From a virus: DNA of 64,000 nucleotides. Of the stretch, positions 5,319 through 60,976 are shown one piece after another. The position numbers and the translations under genes were made by a program. How positions within the stretch are numbered: the stretch's first letter is position 1; the number at the start of each line of letters is the position of its first letter. Location: IMG/VR virus record IMGVR_UViG_3300031111_000003, positions 1 through 64,000 of that record. One strand, 5' to 3'. Below the pieces are notes generated by a model that had not been told where the DNA came from, ran no database searches, and worked only from the letters and a program-made list of their open reading frames with translations.

Positions 5319-5887
5319 AATCCGTCACCGGACACAAGATGCGGCCCGTGCCGAAGTGTTTCATCGTGCTCGGTATGCATCGCTCGGCGACCAGCCTTGT
5401 TGCTCAAGGCCTCAGTCAAGTCGGTGTGAATATGGGGGACGTATCCCGGTTCCATTGGGAGGACCAGCAGTTCATGCGGCTAAATGATAAGATTCTCAAG
5501 GCTGCCGGGGGTAGTTGGTGTTGCCCACCGCCCGAGGATGAGATTATCAATGCTGGGCTGCAATACCGGATGGAAATACTGGCAATCGTCCGTCAGACTC
5601 AGCAGAAAGCAATCTCCAACAAGACTTACTTGTGGGGCTGGAAGGATCCGCGAAATTGTTTGACGGCCAAGTTGTATCTTCCCCTGGTGGAGAATCTCCA
5701 CTTCGTTTACATCCAGCGGGAGGTGCTGGATGTGGCACAGTCTCTGGCCAGGCGCAACAAGTTTACCCTCAACCGGGGGATCAAATTGGCGCGGGAGTAC
5801 AACCGTCGAGCGCTGGAGTTGCTCAGTTGGTGGGATGGGGTGAGTTACGGCAAGGCCAAGTGCATGAAGCCGGAGGTGGTTGAGTGA
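5303..5887 (+). CDS. Sulfotransferase-family protein (PAPS-dependent)
   Basis: 194 residues; the ATG at 5303 is preferred because GGGGGAG precedes it, although the frame opens at 5222. Near the N terminus, FIVLGMHRSATSLVA matches the 5'-phosphosulfate binding loop, WGWKDPRN is a typical central motif, and FVYIQREVLDVAQSL matches the 3'-phosphate region of the sulfotransferase family. It would transfer sulfate from PAPS to a sugar or other hydroxyl. At 194 residues it is short for the family. It overlaps both neighbours, suggesting one operon with the transferases. Confidence 0.8.
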   Translation: MSDFVKSVTGHKMRPVPKCFIVLGMHRSATSLVAQGLSQVGVNMGDVSRFHWEDQQFMRLNDKILKAAGGSWCCPPPEDEIINAGLQYRMEILAIVRQTQQKAISNKTYLWGWKDPRNCLTAKLYLPLVENLHFVYIQREVLDVAQSLARRNKFTLNRGIKLAREYNRRALELLSWWDGVSYGKAKCMKPEVVE

Positions 5888-8060: not shown

Positions 8061-10523
8061 ATGCCTGGTGAGAACATTGGTGAATTGACCGCGCATTTGC
8101 GGCTGTCAGGCCACCAGCTTGCGGGAGACATGGCCCGCGCCAAAGCGCAGTTCCGCGGTATGGAGAACACCGTCGGCCGTTCCATGGCTACGATGCGCAC
8201 CAGCGTCCTCTCCCTGCAATCCGCAATTGCCGGGCTTGGTATTGGCCTTCTGGCGAAGGAGATCATGTCCCTTGGCATGGAATTTGAGCAGACCATGCGA
8301 ACGGTTCAGGGCGTGATGCGGGCTGCTGAGGGGCAGTACAAAGAGCTGGAAGCAGCCGCCCGCAGGATGGGTGAGACCACAGAGTGGACCGCCAACCAAG
8401 CGGCTGAATCCCTGAAGTTCTTGGGCATGGCGGGCTTCGAGGCAGACAAAGCCATCGAAGCTCTGCCCGGAACTTTGGATTTGGCAACGGCTGGAGCTAT
8501 AGATCTTGGTCGGGCTGCTGACATTTCCACCAACGCCTTAACGGCCATGGGGCTTGGAGTAGATGAGCTAACCCGTGTTGGTGACACGTTCATTGGTACC
8601 ATCACTCGTACGAACACCAATATGGATATGATGGCCGAATCGTTTAAGTACGCGGCTCCCGTAGCCAAGGGCTTCGGGATCAGCGTTGAAGAGCTGTCGG
8701 CCATGATCGGCACCCTCGGCAACGCGGGCGTCCAGGGCAGCATGGCCGGTACGCAACTTCGAATGGCGTTCACTTTGGCAACGAAGGCGTTCGAGCATTA
8801 TGGGGAGAGTGCCTACAATGCGGATGGCACGACCAAGTCATTCGTCGATGCTCTCAAGTTGTTGAACGAACGCGGGGCTGACACACAAACCATGCTGGAC
8901 ATTTTTGGCCAACGAGCCGGATTGGCTGCTCTTATCCTCAAGGAGAATATTCCGTTTTACGAGGAGCTGGCCGAAAAGCTGCGCAACGCCGATGGTGAGA
9001 TGAAGACACTCGCCGACCGGATGCGCAACACCACTGCCGGAGCCTTCAGGGAATTGAAGTCCGCTCTGGAGGGGGTGGCTTTGGATATCTTCGCGCAGGA
9101 GGCGAGCGACGCAGAAGATGCCATTCGCAGCTTAACGAATTTCGTTCGAGAGAATAAGGGAGAATGGGCGGACATGGCTGGGGATGTCGCGGCCCTGACG
9201 AAGAACGTCGTGTCTCTGTTTGCTAGCATAGCACAGGGATGGGCGAATCTGCCGCAGATCGTACAAGAAACGGGTTTGTTGGTCGCTCTGTTTGGGGGCA
9301 AGGCAGGAGTTGCTTTTGCTGCTCAAGCTCTTGCCGTTGGTATTGCCATTGATGAGGTCATTCGCAAGCCTATGGAAGCCGCGAATGACTGGTGGCTGAA
9401 GTGGGGGGCTGGCTATTCTAATGAAGAACTGCAGCGGGCACGTGAACTCAGCAACATGAGTTGGGGTGAGCTCTGGACCCGCATGTCCAGCAGTGACGAA
9501 GAGCTGGATCGGATGAAGGGGATGGCCAATTCAAGAGACATCTCTCTTGACCCAGCCATTCGAGCAGCCCAGATCAATGCCAGCCGGGCCAAGTTCAACG
9601 AGGTCGACAAAGGCGCGGTCACTGGTGGTGGTAAGGGCGGAGAAGACCCGAATTGGCTGTCCCGTGGTGAGGAGCTGGTGTGGATGCAGCAGCGCCGGGC
9701 CGGGGATGGCGGTTTGGCTGAAGCCCGTAAGATCATCAAGAACCAGCAGGCCTTTCGTGATAAGCTGTACGAGATCAACGCCACTGCCGATCAGAAAGAA
9801 ATTGATATGTGGCTGGCCAAGAATACAGCCATTGAGGAGAGCACTAACGAGCTGACGGACGGCTTGGTTCGCGGCTTTAAGGACTACGCTACGGAAGCGG
9901 GCAAGTTGTCCGACCAGCTTGCTAATGCAGTGGAGTTTGGTATGAAGGGAATGGAGGACGCCATTCTCCAGTTCACGGAGACCGGCAAGTTTTCCTTCCG
10001 CGACATGGCGAATTCCATCATCAGCGATCTCATGCGGATCACCATTCGATCGTCCATTACAGGTCCTCTAGCCGGGGCTTTGGCGAGGGTCTTCTCCGGC
10101 CCGACGTACAACGTCCGTGGCTACAGCTCGTCGGGGGTCTGGACTGGGGCAAAGGGAGGGGCTTTCGGTCACGATGGCGTGATGGCTTTTGCCCAAGGAG
10201 GCATTGTCAGCCAGCCCACTCTGTTCCCCTTTGCAAAGGGGACGGGCTTGATGGGTGAGGCCGGTGAGGAGGGGATCCTGCCGCTGGCACGGATGAATAA
10301 TGGAGTATTAGGTGTCCATGCTGTGGGTGGTGGCGGTGGAGATATCACAATTAACGTGTATGGTGGTGGTGACGCCGATGTCCGCACGTCACAAGGTGGT
10401 GGTGGCTTCAACATCGATGTGCTCGTTGGCGAGGCCATGGTGCGGGACATTGACCGTAACGGTCCTGGTACTCAGAAGCTGACGAAGACGTTCAACCTCA
10501 AGCGGTCCGGGAGGATAGGATAA
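8061..10523 (+). CDS. Tail tape measure protein
   Basis: 820 residues, the second largest protein here. The N-terminal 350 residues follow the TP901-type core (MRTSVLSLQSAIAGLGIG, EQTMRTVQGVM, TEWTANQAAESLKFLGMAG, TNTNMDMMAESFKYAAPVA). A middle part with hydrophobic helices (about 375-430) is followed by a lambda H-like C terminus (FTETGKFSFRDMANSIISD, GLMGEAGEEGILPLA). It sets tail length and probably is ejected with DNA. It begins two bases after the GT stop. Confidence 0.9.
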   Translation: MPGENIGELTAHLRLSGHQLAGDMARAKAQFRGMENTVGRSMATMRTSVLSLQSAIAGLGIGLLAKEIMSLGMEFEQTMRTVQGVMRAAEGQYKELEAAARRMGETTEWTANQAAESLKFLGMAGFEADKAIEALPGTLDLATAGAIDLGRAADISTNALTAMGLGVDELTRVGDTFIGTITRTNTNMDMMAESFKYAAPVAKGFGISVEELSAMIGTLGNAGVQGSMAGTQLRMAFTLATKAFEHYGESAYNADGTTKSFVDALKLLNERGADTQTMLDIFGQRAGLAALILKENIPFYEELAEKLRNADGEMKTLADRMRNTTAGAFRELKSALEGVALDIFAQEASDAEDAIRSLTNFVRENKGEWADMAGDVAALTKNVVSLFASIAQGWANLPQIVQETGLLVALFGGKAGVAFAAQALAVGIAIDEVIRKPMEAANDWWLKWGAGYSNEELQRARELSNMSWGELWTRMSSSDEELDRMKGMANSRDISLDPAIRAAQINASRAKFNEVDKGAVTGGGKGGEDPNWLSRGEELVWMQQRRAGDGGLAEARKIIKNQQAFRDKLYEINATADQKEIDMWLAKNTAIEESTNELTDGLVRGFKDYATEAGKLSDQLANAVEFGMKGMEDAILQFTETGKFSFRDMANSIISDLMRITIRSSITGPLAGALARVFSGPTYNVRGYSSSGVWTGAKGGAFGHDGVMAFAQGGIVSQPTLFPFAKGTGLMGEAGEEGILPLARMNNGVLGVHAVGGGGGDITINVYGGGDADVRTSQGGGGFNIDVLVGEAMVRDIDRNGPGTQKLTKTFNLKRSGRIG

Positions 10524-52321: not shown

Positions 52322-54478
52322 TTATGCAGCTTGATCGATTTCTTTCAGAGCCTTTTCCATCAGCTTGACCAGGAGTGCGTCGTCCTCGGTGGCTCGGCCG
52401 TCCAGTACCGCGTCCAGGACCTTACGCTTTTCGTCCAGTAGTTCCACGATGTCTTCCTCGACAGTGTTCTCTGCCACGAGGTAGTACGCTTCCACACTGT
52501 CAGCTTCCTGGCCTATTCGGTGCACCCGATCTTCTGCCTGGTCGTGGGCGCCTGGCGTCCATCCCAGCTCGAGGAAGCAGGTGGCGCTGGCGGCAGTCAA
52601 TGTGATGCCCACGCCAGCGGCCTTGATGTTACCGAGGAAGACACGGCAGCTGTTGTCGTTCTGGAAAGTATCGACAACTTCTTGTCTTGCGGCAGCCCGG
52701 GTGCTTCCGTCGAGCTTGACCGGGTTGTAGTCTTTCAGAGCACGTTCGAGGTTCGTCAGCGTTCCCTTGTGGGTGGCGAAGATGACCAGCTTGTTTCCTG
52801 AGTCCAGATAGTCCTTGATCCACTCGGTCGCGCTGGCCAGCTTACCGAGTACGGCAAGTTGCTTGGCTTCCTCGATCATGGTCAAGCCACCGGACCCTGC
52901 CTGGTGGGAGTCTGCCAGGACCTTTCCTCTTTCCTTGGCCGGCTTGGCCACCAGCCACCGCTTGAACTCGTTGTACACCTTGAGGTATCGTTTGTAATCT
53001 GCCTTGCTGACTTCCATAGGGACTACAATTCGTCGCTTGGCTGGTAATTCTGTGAGCACATCCTTCTTGAGTCGGCGCAGCATGATCGTGGAGGACAGTA
53101 GGTGGTGCAGCTCCTCGGTGTTGGATACACCGGTGAAATCCCAGCCGTAGCCGTTGTTTTCCGCGCCACAGTACTTCTGCGCAAACTGCCAGAAGCTGGG
53201 GAAGATGCCGGGCTCGACAAGGGAGATCGCTGGGTAGAATTCAACCGGACGGTTTTCGATTGGGGTACCGGACAGGACCAGGACATGCTCTGCCATCTTG
53301 CACAGGCGGGTGCACGACATGGATCGGGCTCGGTCTCGGTTCTTGATATAGTGACATTCATCTAGGATCACGGCGGACGGATCCGGCAAGCGATCGATCC
53401 AGCCACCAGAGTCCGGCAGTTCTTCGTACTTGGGGCGGCCAGACTTGGTCTTCTTGTACTTGTTCGCTAGCAGATCGTAGTTGATAACGATGACAGGGCC
53501 ACCGGAGCCCTTGCGGACCCGGTGCTTCTTCCATTCGTCGGCGGCGTTTGCCGAAGTGGCCTTTGGGCGCCCGTTGATCACGTAGAGATCCGGGTCTTCC
53601 ATCCAGACCCGGGCTTCCTTCACCCAGTTCAGTTTGACGGAAGCGGGAACAACCACGATTGCCGGGCGGACTTCCGGATGGGCCTGGAGCCAGGCCAGGA
53701 TCTGGATTGTCTTGCCCAGGCCCATCTCGTCGGCCAGCATGGCTCGGCCTTTCTTGGCCTCGATGAAGCGGATGCCTTCTGCCTGGTAGTCGTACAGATT
53801 CTCAGGCAGGACCAGTTCGGTTGTGGTGGATTCTTTTGTTATGGAGGCGTGGCGGGACAGGATGGCTTCCTCGATCGTGAAGCCCCAGGCCTGCAACTTT
53901 TCCACCGAGTCGATGGAGAACGGAGCAGTCCAGTGCTTGTTCTCCGCGTTCCACCTGCGGCCGGCCAGCGTCTTGATTTGAGCCACGAGAGTAGGATCGT
54001 ACGGGAAGGTGATCACCATGATGTTCTTGTCGTACGTCGCCAGGCGGACGCGTTGGGTGCGCTTGGAGGGCTTCTTCTCTGTCTGTGTGAGCATCGGGTG
54101 GTCTGAAGGAACGTCGACATTCTCTACGTTCTCCTGCTCGAGGGTCACGCAAGACTTGGGGATCCAGCCCTCAAACTTAATGGACATGACCATCTGGCGG
54201 AGGCGTTCGGCGTGGGCTTCGGTGAAGCCGTAGGGGCCGAGGACGCTTTCGTCCCACCAGTGCTGCCCACACTCAGGGCCAATGCCGACGAGGCGGGAGA
54301 CGGGGTGCGTCAGCTTGCGTCCACAACGGATGCAGCAGACCAGATCTCCGACATCACCGTGCCCGACGAGATACATGGCCTTGGGTGTTTGTCGGACGAC
54401 TACCCCGGTGATACAGGTGGGGATGTTTTTGGCCTTTGCGAAACCGGGCTTGATCGCGTAGCGATTTGCTTTAGGCAT
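52322..54478 (-). CDS. SNF2-family helicase with HARP-like domain
   Basis: 718 residues from ATG 54478. Residues 45-80 form a zinc unit (CCIRCGRKLTHPVSRLVGIG, then ECG). Residues about 150-210 (FPYDPTLVAQIKTLAGRRW, WTAPFS) match HARP, the annealing-helicase domain of SMARCAL1. The motor follows: Walker A LADEMGLGKTI, DECHYIKN (DEAH-like), SGTP, and C-terminal motifs VFLGNIKAAGVGITLTAA and DRVHRIGQ. It should rewind or remodel forks. The gene is near the start of the replisome block. Confidence 0.88.
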   Translation of the reverse strand: MPKANRYAIKPGFAKAKNIPTCITGVVVRQTPKAMYLVGHGDVGDLVCCIRCGRKLTHPVSRLVGIGPECGQHWWDESVLGPYGFTEAHAERLRQMVMSIKFEGWIPKSCVTLEQENVENVDVPSDHPMLTQTEKKPSKRTQRVRLATYDKNIMVITFPYDPTLVAQIKTLAGRRWNAENKHWTAPFSIDSVEKLQAWGFTIEEAILSRHASITKESTTTELVLPENLYDYQAEGIRFIEAKKGRAMLADEMGLGKTIQILAWLQAHPEVRPAIVVVPASVKLNWVKEARVWMEDPDLYVINGRPKATSANAADEWKKHRVRKGSGGPVIVINYDLLANKYKKTKSGRPKYEELPDSGGWIDRLPDPSAVILDECHYIKNRDRARSMSCTRLCKMAEHVLVLSGTPIENRPVEFYPAISLVEPGIFPSFWQFAQKYCGAENNGYGWDFTGVSNTEELHHLLSSTIMLRRLKKDVLTELPAKRRIVVPMEVSKADYKRYLKVYNEFKRWLVAKPAKERGKVLADSHQAGSGGLTMIEEAKQLAVLGKLASATEWIKDYLDSGNKLVIFATHKGTLTNLERALKDYNPVKLDGSTRAAARQEVVDTFQNDNSCRVFLGNIKAAGVGITLTAASATCFLELGWTPGAHDQAEDRVHRIGQEADSVEAYYLVAENTVEEDIVELLDEKRKVLDAVLDGRATEDDALLVKLMEKALKEIDQAA

Positions 54479-54701
54479 TGTGGAGTCCCCTTTCTTCCGG
54501 GGAATATACATTTTTCCACATCTGCAGAAAGGCGTCCTGTACCCATTGCGGAGCGGTTATTTTGTAGCCCTGTTCGTACCGCCGAACCCAATGCTGCACG
54601 TGGGCATGCAGACGGCGCGCTACCGGGATGGTACAGACACCATATATGCATTTGTTTGGCGTGATGAAAACGGCAAATCCAGAGAAGGTTACTAAAAACA
54701 T
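54471..54701 (-). CDS. Small protein, paralogue of the plus-strand gene at 61347
   Basis: 76 residues. It is clearly similar to the protein at 61347-61547: VTFSGFAVFI against VTYSGFAVFI, GVCTIPVARRLHAHVQHW against GVCSIPVARRLHAHVQHW, and PQWVQDAFL in both. This copy extends about ten residues further. It follows promoter-like copy 5 and overlaps the SNF2 gene start. Function unknown; the membrane-like N terminus (FLVTFSGFAVFI) is weak. Confidence 0.7.
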   Translation of the reverse strand: MFLVTFSGFAVFITPNKCIYGVCTIPVARRLHAHVQHWVRRYEQGYKITAPQWVQDAFLQMWKNVYSPEERGLHNA

Positions 54702-54745: not shown

Positions 54746-54773
54746 TTATTCGGGACCGTGGATAGTAGCGTCT
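54746..54773 (-). promoter_or_regulatory. Phage promoter-like motif, copy 5
   Basis: Minus strand AGACGC, 16 bases, GAATAACGG. It lies directly next to the hammerhead-like element 54774-54840 and 45 bases upstream of the gene 54471-54701. It would start the SNF2-helicase transcript. Confidence 0.6.
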
Positions 54774-54840
54774 GCCTACCTTCATCAGGGCCGGGAGGCA
54801 ATTCCCGACCGACGGGGCCGAAGCCCCGTTTCGGCTTGTA
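54774..54840 (-). ncRNA. Hammerhead ribozyme-like element, copy 1
   Basis: Read on the minus strand in type II order: GAA, then ACGGGGC-TTCG-GCCCCGT (stem III), C as the cleavage base after GT, GGTCGGG...CCCGGCC (stem I, 7 pairs), CTGATGA, then an extra A and GGTAGG. Stem II would be GGT with GCC before GAA, which is weak, and the extra A after CTGATGA is non-standard. Its 61-base core (54774-54834) is identical to copy 2. It sits between the gene 54868-55110 and promoter-like copy 5. Confidence 0.65.
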
Positions 54841-54867
54841 CAAAGAGGAAGCTCGTGTGTCCGTGTT

Positions 54868-55110
54868 TCACCACGTGATCTTGTAATAATTGAGTTTGGC
54901 TGGGGCTCCCTCAATGCACTCCACTTCGAAACCACGATTCAACAACATTTTTACTACATTGTTTCTTGTAAATGCATCCCCCTCCCAGTTCACGTTGGTT
55001 GTGTACTTCCCCTTATCAGAGGCTTTTTGTATTTCGTCCATAATTCGCGCCAGGACCTCTTCTTTTGTGTAGAAAAGGTCAGAGTTCAATCGGGCTTGTG
55101 CGGCATTCAT
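54868..55110 (-). CDS. Small hypothetical protein
   Basis: 80 residues from ATG 55110 (GAGGGG upstream; the frame opens at 55173). It begins MNAAQARLNSDLFYTKEEVL and ends APAKLNYYKITW, alternating helices and strands. No family recognised. Copy 1 of the hammerhead-like element begins about 30 bases after its stop. Confidence 0.55.
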   Translation of the reverse strand: MNAAQARLNSDLFYTKEEVLARIMDEIQKASDKGKYTTNVNWEGDAFTRNNVVKMLLNRGFEVECIEGAPAKLNYYKITW

Positions 55111-55124
55111 GTCTTTCCCCTCTT

Positions 55125-55628
55125 TTATAGCGTATGCTGTGCTACGGTTTGCAGTTCCATGACAGCCTTCCACCAGCGTGTGGTATTCTTGCTGCCGACG
55201 TGGGTCATTACCTTGGACACGAGAGCTCCTCGCATGCGTTTGGGGGCATGTAGGTTGGAAACGACCTCGATGGGGGTCTCGAACAGGATCTGTAGAACTT
55301 GTTTGGCATCGTCCGAAAGCCGGCTGAGGGCTTCACGGAAGGCGGCGATTCGTTCCGGATCCTGTGCCAGGCAGGCGGATGAGGGTGCGTAGGCTGCGTC
55401 AATGTTGGACTGGCGAAATTGCTTGGGACACCACCATTTGAGATACTTTTCGACCACATGGTGGATCCATGTGGACTTGGAAGTGCCTTTGCTCTTCTTC
55501 CACAGCTTTTCGGCTTCGAGTGCCTTCATGACGCACTGCCCGTACACTTCCTCGACTTCAAGAAAGTACGTGCTGGAGTATTTGAGTGCCAACCGCATCA
55601 GCATGTTGTGGTGCTGATATTGTTTCAT
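55125..55628 (-). CDS. Sigma-factor-like protein
   Basis: 167 residues from ATG 55628 (AGGAGG upstream; the long frame back to 55907 is a shadow). The first half LALKYSSTYFLEVEEVYGQC and KGTSKSTWIHHVVEKYLKWW has the helix-then-aromatic layout of sigma-70 region 2 (A-x-x-Y...D-x-x-Q-x-x...F-x-T-W-x-x-x-x-x-x-x-x-x-x). A second helical part (ALSRLSDDAKQVLQILFETP) could be a region 4 start but no complete helix-turn-helix is clear. It may direct polymerase to the phage motif promoters. This is a moderate call. Confidence 0.5.
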   Translation of the reverse strand: MKQYQHHNMLMRLALKYSSTYFLEVEEVYGQCVMKALEAEKLWKKSKGTSKSTWIHHVVEKYLKWWCPKQFRQSNIDAAYAPSSACLAQDPERIAAFREALSRLSDDAKQVLQILFETPIEVVSNLHAPKRMRGALVSKVMTHVGSKNTTRWWKAVMELQTVAQHTL

Positions 55629-55639
55629 ACAAGGACCTC

Positions 55640-55699
55640 CTACACTTCGTTGAGTTGGTTGATCAGGGTTTGGCGATGGGCTATGAGGTCGCGGAGCAT
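55640..55699 (-). CDS. Possible 19-residue peptide
   Basis: ATG 55699 to TAG 55640 encodes MLRDLIAHRQTLINQLNEV, overlapping the end of the next gene and ending just before the sigma-like gene. No separate ribosome site is obvious. It could be a coupled micro-gene or chance. Confidence 0.25.
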   Translation of the reverse strand: MLRDLIAHRQTLINQLNEV

Positions 55700-55932
55700 G
55701 GTTCCGCCTTTGCCTTGGCGATGGCGGCGCGGGCCTTTTCAAACCACAGCCCGCCACGCCTGCCACCCGTCCCTCGACTGGCCTGCTTTTCAAACGCCTG
55801 GGCCACAGGAAGCAGGGCCTCCAGCGCATCCAGCAGGGTCGCGTTGACGGCGCGGAGGCGGGACAGGTCTTGATTTCGTTGCCGCACCAAATCTTCAACT
55901 TCGGCACGGGTCATGTCGGCAAAAGTTCTCAT
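55681..55932 (-). CDS. Small coiled-coil protein
   Basis: 83 residues, AAAGGAGG before ATG. It starts MRTFADMTRAEVEDLVRQRN and runs as a heptad helix (LSRLRAVNATLLDALEALLP), then a Gly/Arg linker and an Ala/Lys helix. Unknown function. Copy 2 of the hammerhead-like element lies 37 bases upstream of its start. Confidence 0.55.
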   Translation of the reverse strand: MRTFADMTRAEVEDLVRQRNQDLSRLRAVNATLLDALEALLPVAQAFEKQASRGTGGRRGGLWFEKARAAIAKAKAEPCSATS

Positions 55933-55968
55933 GGCTCAATCCTCCTTTGTCCAGGTTGGGTTGGAGTA

Positions 55969-56036
55969 GCCTACCTTCATCAGGGCCGGGAGGCAATTCC
56001 CGACCGACGGGGCCGAAGCCCCGTTTCGGTTATTTG
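55969..56036 (-). ncRNA. Hammerhead ribozyme-like element, copy 2
   Basis: Core 55969-56029 is identical over 61 bases to copy 1: GAA, stem III ACGGGGC-TTCG-GCCCCGT, cleavage C, 7-bp stem I, CTGATGA plus an extra A. Here the bases before GAA are AACC, giving GGT with ACC for stem II. The element begins at the very stop codon of the gene 56030-56296 (AAA TAA CC GAAAC), so cleavage would separate it from the downstream message. Confidence 0.7.
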
Positions 56037-56296
56037 GTTTTGAAGGCGAGATGTTTCGCCTTGTCGTTACGTTTCTTGATGACACGCTCGGCCCATTCAC
56101 AGACATCGTTCCAGCTGGTCGAGAGTATGATGCCCACGAGTTCAGCGGTCTGCGCGTCGAACTCGTTTTCGACGCGATGGGCTGCTTCGGTGCAGGTGAG
56201 TGTGTAGGAGCCATACTCATCGTGCATAATAAACGACTTTTCACGCACTTCTGCCGCGTCCAGGATGAAGCGGGCCAGAGCTGGGTTGATGTCCAT
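56030..56296 (-). CDS. Hypothetical protein
   Basis: 88 residues from ATG 56296, AAGGAGAACACC upstream. It starts MDINPALARFILDAAEVREK and contains TAELVGIILSTSWNDVCEWA. Mostly helical. No family recognised. Its stop codon forms part of the hammerhead-like element copy 2. Confidence 0.55.
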   Translation of the reverse strand: MDINPALARFILDAAEVREKSFIMHDEYGSYTLTCTEAAHRVENEFDAQTAELVGIILSTSWNDVCEWAERVIKKRNDKAKHLAFKTK

Positions 56297-56306
56297 GGTG
56301 TTCTCC

Positions 56307-56840
56307 TTACTCAAAAAAGAGTTGGTTAAAGGTATATCCGAGTTCCAGAGCCCCAATACCGACATGGCAGTGGCCGTTGGACATGGCCCCCACCCGGCCC
56401 CCGACAAGGAAGCCGCCGAGCTCTCCCAGGTCGTACCAGGCGGACGCCTCGGGGATGATGATCGGGCCGTTGTAGTTGTTGGAGGGCTTGTTCATCCAGC
56501 CTGGCACGGCTCCGGCGTAGATGGAGAACCGATCGTTGCTCCAGATGCGGTACTCAACAAGACCGCCAACCACCCACATTGAGCAGTCACGGCCTTGAGC
56601 CGAGGGGACGTTGCTGTCCCCCTCCAGGTAAACGCCAAGGACACCCGCACGGACACGTTCCCAGCCCGTTTGCATGGTGAAGGTGCCGAGGATGCCACGG
56701 TGGCTGTCCTTGACTTCGTTGCGATTACCGGAATGAGCGGTTTGGAGCGCCGTGGTTCCGGTGATCGTGTACTTGCGTTCCTCGGCCTGGGCCGGGAGCG
56801 CCATAGTCAGTAGGATGATGAGCAGAATGATGGAACGCAT
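56307..56840 (-). CDS. Secreted beta-barrel-like (outer membrane) protein
   Basis: 177 residues from ATG 56840 (GAGGAGG upstream). A signal peptide MRSIILLIILLTMALPAQA with an AQA cut site is clear. The mature part alternates strands ending in aromatic residues (ERVRAGVLGVYLEGD; VVGGLVEYRIWS; DLGELGGFLVGGRVGAM; ALELGYTFNQLFF), as in small eight-stranded barrels. Expression in the early region suggests a role in the infected cell such as superinfection exclusion or altering the surface, which is inference. Confidence 0.65.
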   Translation of the reverse strand: MRSIILLIILLTMALPAQAEERKYTITGTTALQTAHSGNRNEVKDSHRGILGTFTMQTGWERVRAGVLGVYLEGDSNVPSAQGRDCSMWVVGGLVEYRIWSNDRFSIYAGAVPGWMNKPSNNYNGPIIIPEASAWYDLGELGGFLVGGRVGAMSNGHCHVGIGALELGYTFNQLFFE

Positions 56841-56853
56841 GTTTCCTCCTCGG

Positions 56854-57534
56854 TTACCAGTGGATCCGGCCGTTCTCGTCCAACTGGGCGGGCTGGCCGA
56901 AGAAGTTGTCCTTGCTGGTTTGCATGGCACGATGGTACACGTACTGGCGGACCGTGCTCGGGTTCAGGCCCCGCTCGCGGCCTTCGGCCACGATCTCACG
57001 CTGAGTGTAGCGACCGGCGGCGATCATGTCGCGAACGAACTCGGCCACGATGCCACGGCGACCGGACTTGCGGGCCGAGATGATCGGACGGGGAGCTTCG
57101 TGCTCGTCGGCCTGGACCCATTCCTCGGACAGCATGTGGATGCTGGCGTGGCACAGGTCACACAGTTGGGAAACGTCGTAGTCAGCGACCTCGATGAGGT
57201 ACTGGTACTCGACCTCAGCGTCCAAGCCGAGCTCCCGGCGGGCCTTGTTGACGATGGACTTGGTGTTCATCCGGTTGGACACCAGCTCGCGGCCGGCGAT
57301 TTCGTTGACGGTTTCGATCAGCATGGCTCGCTCCTGTCGGGACATTTGCAGCTCGACCTCTCCGTCCATCTTCTGCAGTTGCAGCATGGCGGTGGTGTTC
57401 CACAAGGACTCGAGCTCGTCCCGCTCCATGGTGGCCAAGGACTTCTTGGTGACCTTGGCTTCGGGAGCCAGGGTGTCAATGATGTTCTTGCGGGTCATGG
57501 TCTCAAACGTGTCGTGATCGATCGAATACAGCAT
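56854..57534 (-). CDS. Hypothetical early protein with C-terminal HTH-like part
   Basis: 226 residues; ATG 57534 has GGAGG seven bases upstream (an earlier start is at 57546). The N-terminal part is helical (MTRKNIIDTLAPEAKVTKK). A pair of Cys (LCDLCHASIH) could bind metal. The C-terminal segment RYTQREIVAEGRERGLNPST, then VRQYVYHRAMQ, looks like a helix-turn-helix. It may be a DNA-binding regulator. Confidence 0.5.
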   Translation of the reverse strand: MLYSIDHDTFETMTRKNIIDTLAPEAKVTKKSLATMERDELESLWNTTAMLQLQKMDGEVELQMSRQERAMLIETVNEIAGRELVSNRMNTKSIVNKARRELGLDAEVEYQYLIEVADYDVSQLCDLCHASIHMLSEEWVQADEHEAPRPIISARKSGRRGIVAEFVRDMIAAGRYTQREIVAEGRERGLNPSTVRQYVYHRAMQTSKDNFFGQPAQLDENGRIHW

Positions 57535-57569
57535 TTTGTCCTCCAAAGGGTTACGCTGTTGTCTGTTGA

Positions 57570-57636
57570 CCTACCTCATCAGCGTCAGGCGGTCAGTCCT
57601 GGCGGACGGTCCCGTAGGACCGTTTCGGTTAGGGGC
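57570..57636 (-). ncRNA. Hammerhead ribozyme-like element, copy 3 (best match)
   Basis: Read on the minus strand: CCCCTAACC before GAA; stem III ACGGTCC-TACG-GGACCGT (UACG loop); cleavage base C after GT; stem I CGCCAGG...CCTGACG with one C-A mismatch; CTGATGA; then GGTAGG. Stem II is GGT/ACC plus AGG/CCT with one bulged A. All core bases of a type II hammerhead are present and spaced correctly. It differs from copies 1-2 in every stem while keeping pairing, i.e. covariation. It starts at the stop codon of the gene 57629-57907. Confidence 0.8.
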
Positions 57637-57907
57637 ATTCGACGGCACAGTTGTCATCGAAGAAGTTGGAGCAGTCACGGATCCGTTCTTGCAGGTTGGC
57701 CTTGCTGATGACCTTGCCGTTTAGCTGGAATCGGACAGGGAAGGACCAGCTCCGGAGATTGCTGTTCTGCCGAACGGTCACGTACACCTCAATTTCACCG
57801 ATAGGCGTTTGGAAGTGCTTGGCGGCGTAGCGGAAGTGCCCGGATTCTTCTGTCCGTCTCTTGGCGAGGTCTTGGGTCTCTTGGATCATTTCACTCAAAG
57901 TCTTCAT
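57629..57907 (-). CDS. Hypothetical early protein
   Basis: 92 residues, GAGGAGGGG before ATG. It begins MKTLSEMIQETQDLAKRRTE and continues with a beta part (GEIEVYVTVRQNSNLRSWSF). No family recognised. Its stop is the first base group of hammerhead-like copy 3. Confidence 0.55.
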   Translation of the reverse strand: MKTLSEMIQETQDLAKRRTEESGHFRYAAKHFQTPIGEIEVYVTVRQNSNLRSWSFPVRFQLNGKVISKANLQERIRDCSNFFDDNCAVECP

Positions 57908-58673: not shown

Positions 58674-59396
58674 ATGGCCCGCAGGCGCACTCCAAAGTCA
58701 CCCCAAAAAGAACTTCACAATTCTCGCGACGTCGGTATCCGAGCCCAGGATCGACGCCTCAGCCGACGTTTCATGCTGGACAACGAGCTGACCCCGAAAG
58801 AGTCACTGTACGTGATTGAATACCTCGTAGACCTCAACCAGACCCAGGCCGCTATCCGAGCCGGCTACTCCCCCGAGGCCGCAGCCGGGATCGCCAGCCA
58901 GAAGATGGCCAAGCCTCATATTCGAGAGGCAATCGCCAAGGCCATGAGAGCCAGAGCAGCCCGAACCCAGATCACCGCCGATAGGGTCCTTCAAGAACTC
59001 GGCCGGATTGGGTTCGCTGACCCAGGTCGCTACTACGACAGCGACGGCGACCTAGTCAGCATGAGCGAGCTCACAGAGGACGAGCGTGCGGCCATCAGCG
59101 AGACGAAGATTCGTACACACTACAAGCGCGACAAGAAAACAGGGGACGTCGCGGTCCAGGGATACACCAAGGAGATCAAGCTGCATCCCAAGGAGCCGGC
59201 ACTCAAGCTACTCGCCAAACACCTCGGGGTGCTCCACGATAAGATCACCGTCGACTACAACGAGACCCACGAACACCGGGTGACGTTCGACTACAGCAGC
59301 CTGTCCGAGGAGGAAATGGCGGTGCTGCTGAAACTAATCGGAGCTAAGTACGCCACGGTGGAGGATATGTTGTGTCCGAGCAACATGAGCCAGTAG
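58674..59396 (+). CDS. terS: Terminase small subunit
   Basis: 240 residues from ATG 58674 (GGAGGAAAAATC upstream). LTPKESLYVIEYLVDLNQTQ then AAIRAGYSPEAAAGIASQKM is the typical Terminase_2 helix-turn-helix that binds packaging sites. The tail EHRVTFDYSSLSEEEMAVLL is also common in this family. It overlaps the large subunit gene by 25 bases. It selects phage DNA and stimulates the large subunit. Confidence 0.88.
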   Translation: MARRRTPKSPQKELHNSRDVGIRAQDRRLSRRFMLDNELTPKESLYVIEYLVDLNQTQAAIRAGYSPEAAAGIASQKMAKPHIREAIAKAMRARAARTQITADRVLQELGRIGFADPGRYYDSDGDLVSMSELTEDERAAISETKIRTHYKRDKKTGDVAVQGYTKEIKLHPKEPALKLLAKHLGVLHDKITVDYNETHEHRVTFDYSSLSEEEMAVLLKLIGAKYATVEDMLCPSNMSQ

Positions 59397-60976
59397 ATCC
59401 TCAGGCAGCAGTCCTGAATGGGCTGATTGCCAAGGCGATCGAGAACGGGACCGCAGTACGGGCCGAAGCCTGTCGCCGGTCCTTTTTCACGTTCGTGCAG
59501 GAGTTCTGGGACGAGCTGGTCCCCGATCCTCTCCAGCTGAATTGGCACATGGCCGTTTTGTGCAGCGAGCTGCAGCAATTAGCCGAGGGGGTCGCTCGCG
59601 GAGACGACGCTCCCTACGACCTGATTGAGAACGTGCCTCCCGGGACGACGAAATCAACTTTGTCCGTCATCATGTTCCCCGCCTGGTGTTGGACTCGTTG
59701 GTTGTGGATGCGGTTTATCTGTGGCTCATACTCGGGTCCGCTGGCGGGGGATCACGGTGGATTGTGCAAGGACCTCGTCCAGAGTGAGAAGTATAAGGCG
59801 TATTTCCCTAAGGTACGGATCCGTTCGGACCATGACGCTCGGTCCAACTTCCGGCTGCAGGACGTCAAGGAAATAAACGAGGAGACCGGGCAGCGGTACA
59901 CGATCAAGGGCGGACAGAGGATCGCGTGCTCGGTCGGCGGTACGGTGACAGGCCGCCACGCCCATATCATCCTGATGGACGACCCGCTGAACCCTAAGCA
60001 GGCGGTGTCCAAGACCCAGGCCCAGACGGCGTGTGAGTTCATGGACCAGACGCTGTCCACTCGTAAGGTGGACAAGGCCAAGACGCCGACCGTCTTGATC
60101 ATGCAGCGACTTCACGAGAACGATCCCACGGGCAACTGGCTGAGTCAGGAGAAAGAAGGCAAGCGGATCAAGCACATCTGCCTGCCGATCGAGTGTGTCA
60201 ACTACGAGGTCAAGCCCGCCGAGCTCAAGGCATTCTACACTGCCGACGGCCTGCTCGATCCCAAGCGCATGCCGTGGACCGTAATAGCCGACATGAAAAT
60301 CTCACTCGGCCAGTACGGCTTCGCCGGCCAGTGCGGCCAGAATCCCGCCCCGCCTTCTGGTGGTATGTTTGACGTTGAAAAGCTGATGCAGAACACCGTC
60401 GACGTTCCACCTTCCAAGGTCGTTCGCACTGTTCGCTACTGGGACAAGGCTGGAACTGACAAAAAGGAAAATCCTGGAGCTGCTCACACTGCTGGATTGC
60501 AGATGGGCCTCATGGAGAATGGCGAGGTGATCATTTTACACGTGGAGCGAGGCCAATGGTCGGCGGACAAGCGAGAACGTCGCATGCGATCAATTGCAGA
60601 GGCTGACGGACATGCTACCCGTATCTACGTGGAACAGGAACCGGGTAGCGGTGGAAAGGACAGTGCCCGGATGTCCATCAAGAATCTGCACGGATATTCC
60701 TGCCGAGCTGATCCTCCTCGTGGCGATAAAATCTATCGAGCTGATCCGTTGAGTGCTGCGACTGAAGCCGGGCACGTGTTCCTGCTCCGAGGGGAGTGGA
60801 ATCGGGCGTTCATTGATGAGGCCCGGTTGTTCCCCAACAGTACCTACAAGGACCAGATCGACGCTGGATCCGGAGCGTATATGAAGCTCGTGGGCGGCAA
60901 GCACCGGGCCGGTGCTCTCCGGGGCAGCAAGAAGAAGGAAAAGCTCCGCCGAGCGCGGATGGGAATAGTTTCATAA
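59372..60976 (+). CDS. terL: Terminase large subunit
   Basis: 534 residues starting at GTG 59372 (GGAGGATATGTT upstream). The ATPase has NVPPGTTKST as a Walker A variant, HIILMDDPLNP as Walker B and LIMQRLHENDPTGNW as the coupling motif. The C-terminal nuclease begins RYWDKAGTDKKENPGAAHT with its first Asp and continues to IYVEQEPGSGGKDS (Glu). It packages DNA into the prohead. Headful or cos packaging cannot be told from sequence alone. Confidence 0.92.
   Translation: MSEQHEPVDPQAAVLNGLIAKAIENGTAVRAEACRRSFFTFVQEFWDELVPDPLQLNWHMAVLCSELQQLAEGVARGDDAPYDLIENVPPGTTKSTLSVIMFPAWCWTRWLWMRFICGSYSGPLAGDHGGLCKDLVQSEKYKAYFPKVRIRSDHDARSNFRLQDVKEINEETGQRYTIKGGQRIACSVGGTVTGRHAHIILMDDPLNPKQAVSKTQAQTACEFMDQTLSTRKVDKAKTPTVLIMQRLHENDPTGNWLSQEKEGKRIKHICLPIECVNYEVKPAELKAFYTADGLLDPKRMPWTVIADMKISLGQYGFAGQCGQNPAPPSGGMFDVEKLMQNTVDVPPSKVVRTVRYWDKAGTDKKENPGAAHTAGLQMGLMENGEVIILHVERGQWSADKRERRMRSIAEADGHATRIYVEQEPGSGGKDSARMSIKNLHGYSCRADPPRGDKIYRADPLSAATEAGHVFLLRGEWNRAFIDEARLFPNSTYKDQIDAGSGAYMKLVGGKHRAGALRGSKKKEKLRRARMGIVS

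Follow-up and report, generated by a model that had tools for sequence, protein, structure and literature searches.

Three type II hammerhead ribozymes between the genes of a phage operon, and the frequent start of phage hammerheads at the preceding stop codon

What does a self-cutting RNA do between the genes of a phage operon? A 2017 review (PMC6155905) listed the role of hammerhead ribozymes in prokaryotes and phages as open, and the question is raised again by three hammerhead-like elements on the minus strand of the stretch of viral DNA analysed here (the window, 64 kb, which is nearly all of a virus record of 66,164 bases). Type II hammerheads, together with their pseudoknot and their clusters flanking prophage genes, are known from Perreault et al. 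(2011; PMC3088659), who reported that three tandem arrangements were cleaved in vitro and one in E. coli, that a pseudoknot between loop I and the tail is needed for fast cleavage, and who already read such clusters as cutting mRNA.

An Rfam scan of the window returned exactly three RNA elements above threshold, all Hammerhead_II (RF02276) and all on the minus strand: copy 1 at 54770..54836 (48.6 bits), copy 2 at 55965..56031 (48.9 bits) and copy 3 at 57565..57630 (49.3 bits), against a gathering threshold of 37 bits. The matches lie within 4-6 nt of where the original prediction had placed three minus-strand hammerhead-like elements, and the check that it had proposed, a covariance search with the Rfam type II model, comes out in its favour. 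No other Rfam family matched at the three copies, a permissive Rfam search of the window added one match only, at chance level, and the pattern CCGAAAC..GTC..CTGATGA occurs three times in the window compared with none in 100 shuffles.

The predicted core and type II order were found in every copy: CUGAUGA, GAAAC and the GUC cleavage triplet are present, stems I and III are closed by loops and stem II is open. The predicted cuts fall on the minus strand between 54811 and 54810 in copy 1, between 56006 and 56005 in copy 2 and between 57605 and 57604 in copy 3. The identity claimed for copies 1 and 2 is exact, covering 61 nt (54774-54834 and 55969-56029) whose ends coincide with the ribozyme and whose flanks are unrelated to each other. 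In both of these copies stem II begins after one extra base, the A after CTGATGA that had been given as a caveat; this is a common kind of natural variation, one extra base after the core giving the best pairing in 47 of 162 type II ribozymes scanned. Copy 3, in which stem III carries a UACG loop, was said to differ in all stems and to keep the pairing. Compensatory changes in stems III and I do preserve the fold; however, copies 2 and 3 have one and the same stem II (ACC/GGU), and stem I of copy 3 contains one C.A mismatch.

A feature missed by the original prediction is a possible pseudoknot between loop I and the 3' tail, which can be read directly from the letters as UGACC:GGUCA in copy 3, GCCU:AGGC in copy 2 and 6 bp in copy 1, so that 4-6 bp are possible in each copy. 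A loop I-tail pairing score of at least 4 is reached by 66% of the 162 type II ribozymes, compared with 23% when the tails are swapped. For copy 3, the minimum-energy nested fold (-27.3) lies below the hammerhead fold (-19.9, with the pseudoknot uncounted), and in this competing fold (57565-57630, minus strand) a long helix takes up the pseudoknot strand. The competing fold is possibly a switch, or it may merely mark the limit of nested folding; co-transcriptional folding may spare copy 3 from it. We conclude that membership of the three copies in the type II hammerhead class is well supported, and they would be expected to be active.

All three copies lie between genes of the same strand with a ribosome-binding site downstream, giving several hammerheads on one strand that flank genes of a phage operon, as in the known clusters. 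In the direction of transcription, a 92-aa gene without a family match (57629..57907), the stop codon of which abuts the ribozyme, is followed by copy 3 and then by a 226-aa gene, likewise without a family match, that has a GGAGG ribosome-binding site (56854..57534), a 177-aa gene with a weak outer-membrane beta-barrel domain match and a signal-like start (56307..56840) and an 88-aa gene (56030..56296). Copy 2 is followed by genes of 83 aa (55681..55932), 167 aa (55125..55628, weak sigma-70 region 2 match) and 80 aa (54868..55110), and copy 1 by a 76-aa gene (54471..54701, also with a weak sigma-70 region 2 match) and, further down the same minus-strand operon, an SNF2-type helicase with a DUF6011 segment (52322..54478). 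The operon is presumably early, because it leads to this helicase and runs away from the terminase genes, with the gene for the terminase large subunit (59372..60976, plus strand) divergent from it. Copies 2 and 3 do begin, as predicted, at the TAA of their upstream genes (56030 and 57629), and the next ATG, with its ribosome-binding site, follows 38-40 nt beyond the edge of stem II. Copy 1 lies about 32 nt past the stop of its upstream gene, and its gaps to the neighbouring genes are wider than those at copies 2 and 3.

Given the observed sequence, model match, position and comparative constraint, we think it probable that each of the three copies severs the leftward polycistronic message at its gene junction, on the 3' side of the C in GUC, leaving hairpin-protected ends and uncoupling the cistrons. 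Such cutting would amount to constitutive processing of a long early message, between cistrons, into shorter mRNAs. From the type II structure, the upstream message would keep stem III as a hairpin closing its new 3' end and would terminate in a 2',3'-cyclic phosphate; the downstream message would start with a 5'-OH and keep stem I at that new end, as a hairpin that precedes the ribosome-binding site. With a whole hairpin on each product end, both ends would be shielded, and exonucleases and the 5'-end-dependent RNase E would probably be excluded from them. The three scores above the curated threshold, the pseudoknot potential of all three copies together with its family-wide excess over swapped tails, and the same-strand intercistronic placement all argue for cutting, as does the Agrobacterium tumefaciens triple, which was cleaved both in vitro and in E. 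coli (PMC3088659). On the other side, 4 of the 18 consensus-like hammerheads assayed by Perreault et al. gave no cleavage (PMC3088659), copy 3 has its stem I mismatch and a minimum-energy nested fold that is not a hammerhead, and copies 1 and 2 have the extra base between the core and stem II.

Evidence from related phages points the same way. A nucleotide search of phage records gave short helicase matches only. The terminase large subunit was chosen as the query for relatives because helicase-based searches found none in viral contigs or genome contigs, and 73 viral contigs were found to encode a related terminase. Since the Rfam type II model alone found few relatives with hammerheads, a search of all three permutations was needed, and this gave 15 hammerheads of type I or type II on the antisense strand upstream of the terminase, against a chance expectation of about 0.1 per set in simulated sequence of the same dinucleotide make-up; one further match, on the other strand, looks spurious. 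The hammerhead-bearing relatives have terminases about 50% identical and the same divergent operon. Their 15 hammerheads represent about six lineages, with type I in most, and three of the contigs (L026, L027 and L075) carry the same ribozymes, each contig having a type II and a type I hammerhead. Many of the relative contigs are fragments, in which absence of a hammerhead carries no information. In L026 the type I hammerhead at 5322-5371 (minus strand), for which Rfam gave no match even at a permissive threshold, has a gene's TAA stop codon inside stem I. The site of the hammerheads is thus retained even as their topology varies, which favours selection for cutting over selection for a single inherited sequence.

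The stop-codon starts of copies 2 and 3 have many counterparts. A scan of viral contigs with the type II core drew on at least 120 contigs and, among the matches listed, yielded 149 distinct ribozymes after a fold test; in 83 of these (56%) a long upstream frame has a stop codon ending at an offset of -6 to -1 nt relative to the GAA core, compared with 1.2% for random positions on the same strands. In a held-out scan with another core variant the stop ended within 6 nt of the GAA core in 23 of 65 matches (35%, versus 1.5% at random). Some matches of the survey may be chance folds; five of the 65 held-out ones lie inside a frame of at least 100 aa. Type I ribozymes have a stop within -12 to +7 of CTGANGA in 55 of 106 cases (versus 3.2%), with the TGA of the catalytic core itself serving as the stop codon in 15, and none of the 106 is spanned by a frame of at least 100 aa. 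Gene calls in the survey were simple open frames of at least 60 aa, so that short upstream genes were missed. Slack in the gaps was on the 3' side at 81 junctions and on the 5' side at 10. We also considered whether the stop triplets arise only from an A-G preference in stem II, and this is an insufficient explanation, because the long upstream frame terminates at 22 of 46 held-out stop triplets (offsets -6 to -2) and because stops occur at several offsets. We conclude that type I and type II hammerheads alike often begin at the stop codon of the preceding gene.

Two contigs deserve separate description. The minus strand of L097 packs nine type II hammerheads into 4.3 kb; nearly every gene there is followed by one, and several of the nine are nearly identical. 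L077 has two type II hammerheads, at 9288-9355 and 9913-9982, both of which begin at a stop codon; an A inserted into the core of the first (CUGAAUGA) may make it slow or abolish its activity.

One contig led to isolated phages of Streptomyces lividans. The fold test found 11 type II hammerheads within 9 kb of phage Alvy (L322), of which 9 or 10 also pass the Rfam threshold, and 8 in phage Andris (L323), where 7 matches exceed it. By the deposited annotation most of these ribozymes are intergenic and start mostly 2-47 nt past a stop codon, so the tight stop-codon rule is not universal. One hammerhead of Andris lies 24 nt before a gene for an OCR-like antirestriction protein, recalling ardA in Agrobacterium. 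A link between aminoglycoside action on phages and hammerheads was considered and dropped; the block imposed by the drugs precedes transcription, and lambda is also affected.

Could the stop-codon position mean that cutting is gated by translation of the upstream gene? A ribosome at the stop codon would occupy the 5' side of the ribozyme (stem II, GAAAC and the beginning of stem III) and prevent folding, so that the message would be cut mainly when the upstream gene is untranslated. The placement of upstream stops no more than 6 nt from the GAA core, in the type II ribozymes among the matches listed and in the held-out set, speaks for such gating, as do the similar behaviour of type I and the slack on the 3' rather than the 5' side. 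Against this, copy 1 stands well clear of its stop codon, the annotated gaps in the Streptomyces phages span mostly 2-47 nt, and tight packing in a compact genome, combined with keeping ribosomes out of the ribozyme, could yield the same pattern in sequence. We regard gating as unlikely; our guess, offered tentatively, is that anchoring at the stop codon could result from an interplay of termination and self-cutting, by which arrays of nine or more hammerheads would make single-gene messages in a translation-dependent way.

It is also rather improbable, in our judgement, that the hammerheads are selfish or chance-copied elements of no benefit to the phage, which would spread between junctions because self-cutting there does little harm. 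The 61-nt block shared by copies 1 and 2 in unrelated flanks has the look of such copying, similar near-identical pairs occur in L097 and L140, and both topologies are found in related phages. However, copy 3 and the hammerheads of the relatives retain their pairing with different letters, the side of the operon is constant among phages of such divergent terminases, and neither a mobility gene nor a target duplication was seen. We find it very hard to credit that the elements merely look like hammerheads and are in fact plain hairpins, serving as intrinsic terminators or RNase III sites. Stem III does form a strong hairpin with a UNCG loop shortly past a gene, but the unpaired core is conserved across the three copies and the relatives, the covariance-model scores exceed threshold, and intrinsic terminators were rejected because no terminator-like site was found on the minus strand at any copy.

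Cutting of the message between cistrons remains the reading that we prefer, and the stop-codon starts bear directly on the question of what phage hammerheads are for. The position rule, together with the arrays in phages that were isolated with laboratory Streptomyces lividans strains as hosts, makes that role testable, and a functional test is practical because the phages carrying these arrays have been isolated. The words 'stop codon' are absent from the main text of Perreault et al. (2011; PMC3088659), and we found no mention of the rule in the set of papers covered by our search.

Compared with the type II hammerheads of bacteria and phages (RF02276; PMC3088659), the three copies have the same core, topology, short stem II, pseudoknot and gene-flanking clusters, and nothing essential differs; here copies 1 and 2 have the extra base after the core, and two copies in one operon have an identical 61-nt block. 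The A. tumefaciens triple around ardA (PMC3088659) likewise consists of three tandem hammerheads between short phage genes, although the genes are different ones, and the operon in the window leads to an SNF2-type helicase; cleavage of that triple was demonstrated in vitro and in E. coli. HHphage of the haloviruses HF1 and HF2, as summarised in PMC3088659, similarly precedes a helicase gene within an early operon, and work cited there mapped an RNA 5' end near its cut site; it differs in having a variant core with an insertion near C3, in belonging to an archaeal virus and in being described as one element. The theta ribozymes of gut phages (PMC10879173) are also small ribozymes of phages that sit exactly at the border of a gene, but they have an HDV-like fold and cut beside tRNA 3' ends, not between protein genes. 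Phage hammerhead clusters are thus a known kind, to which the present analysis adds the stop-codon position rule and the hammerhead arrays of phages available in culture.
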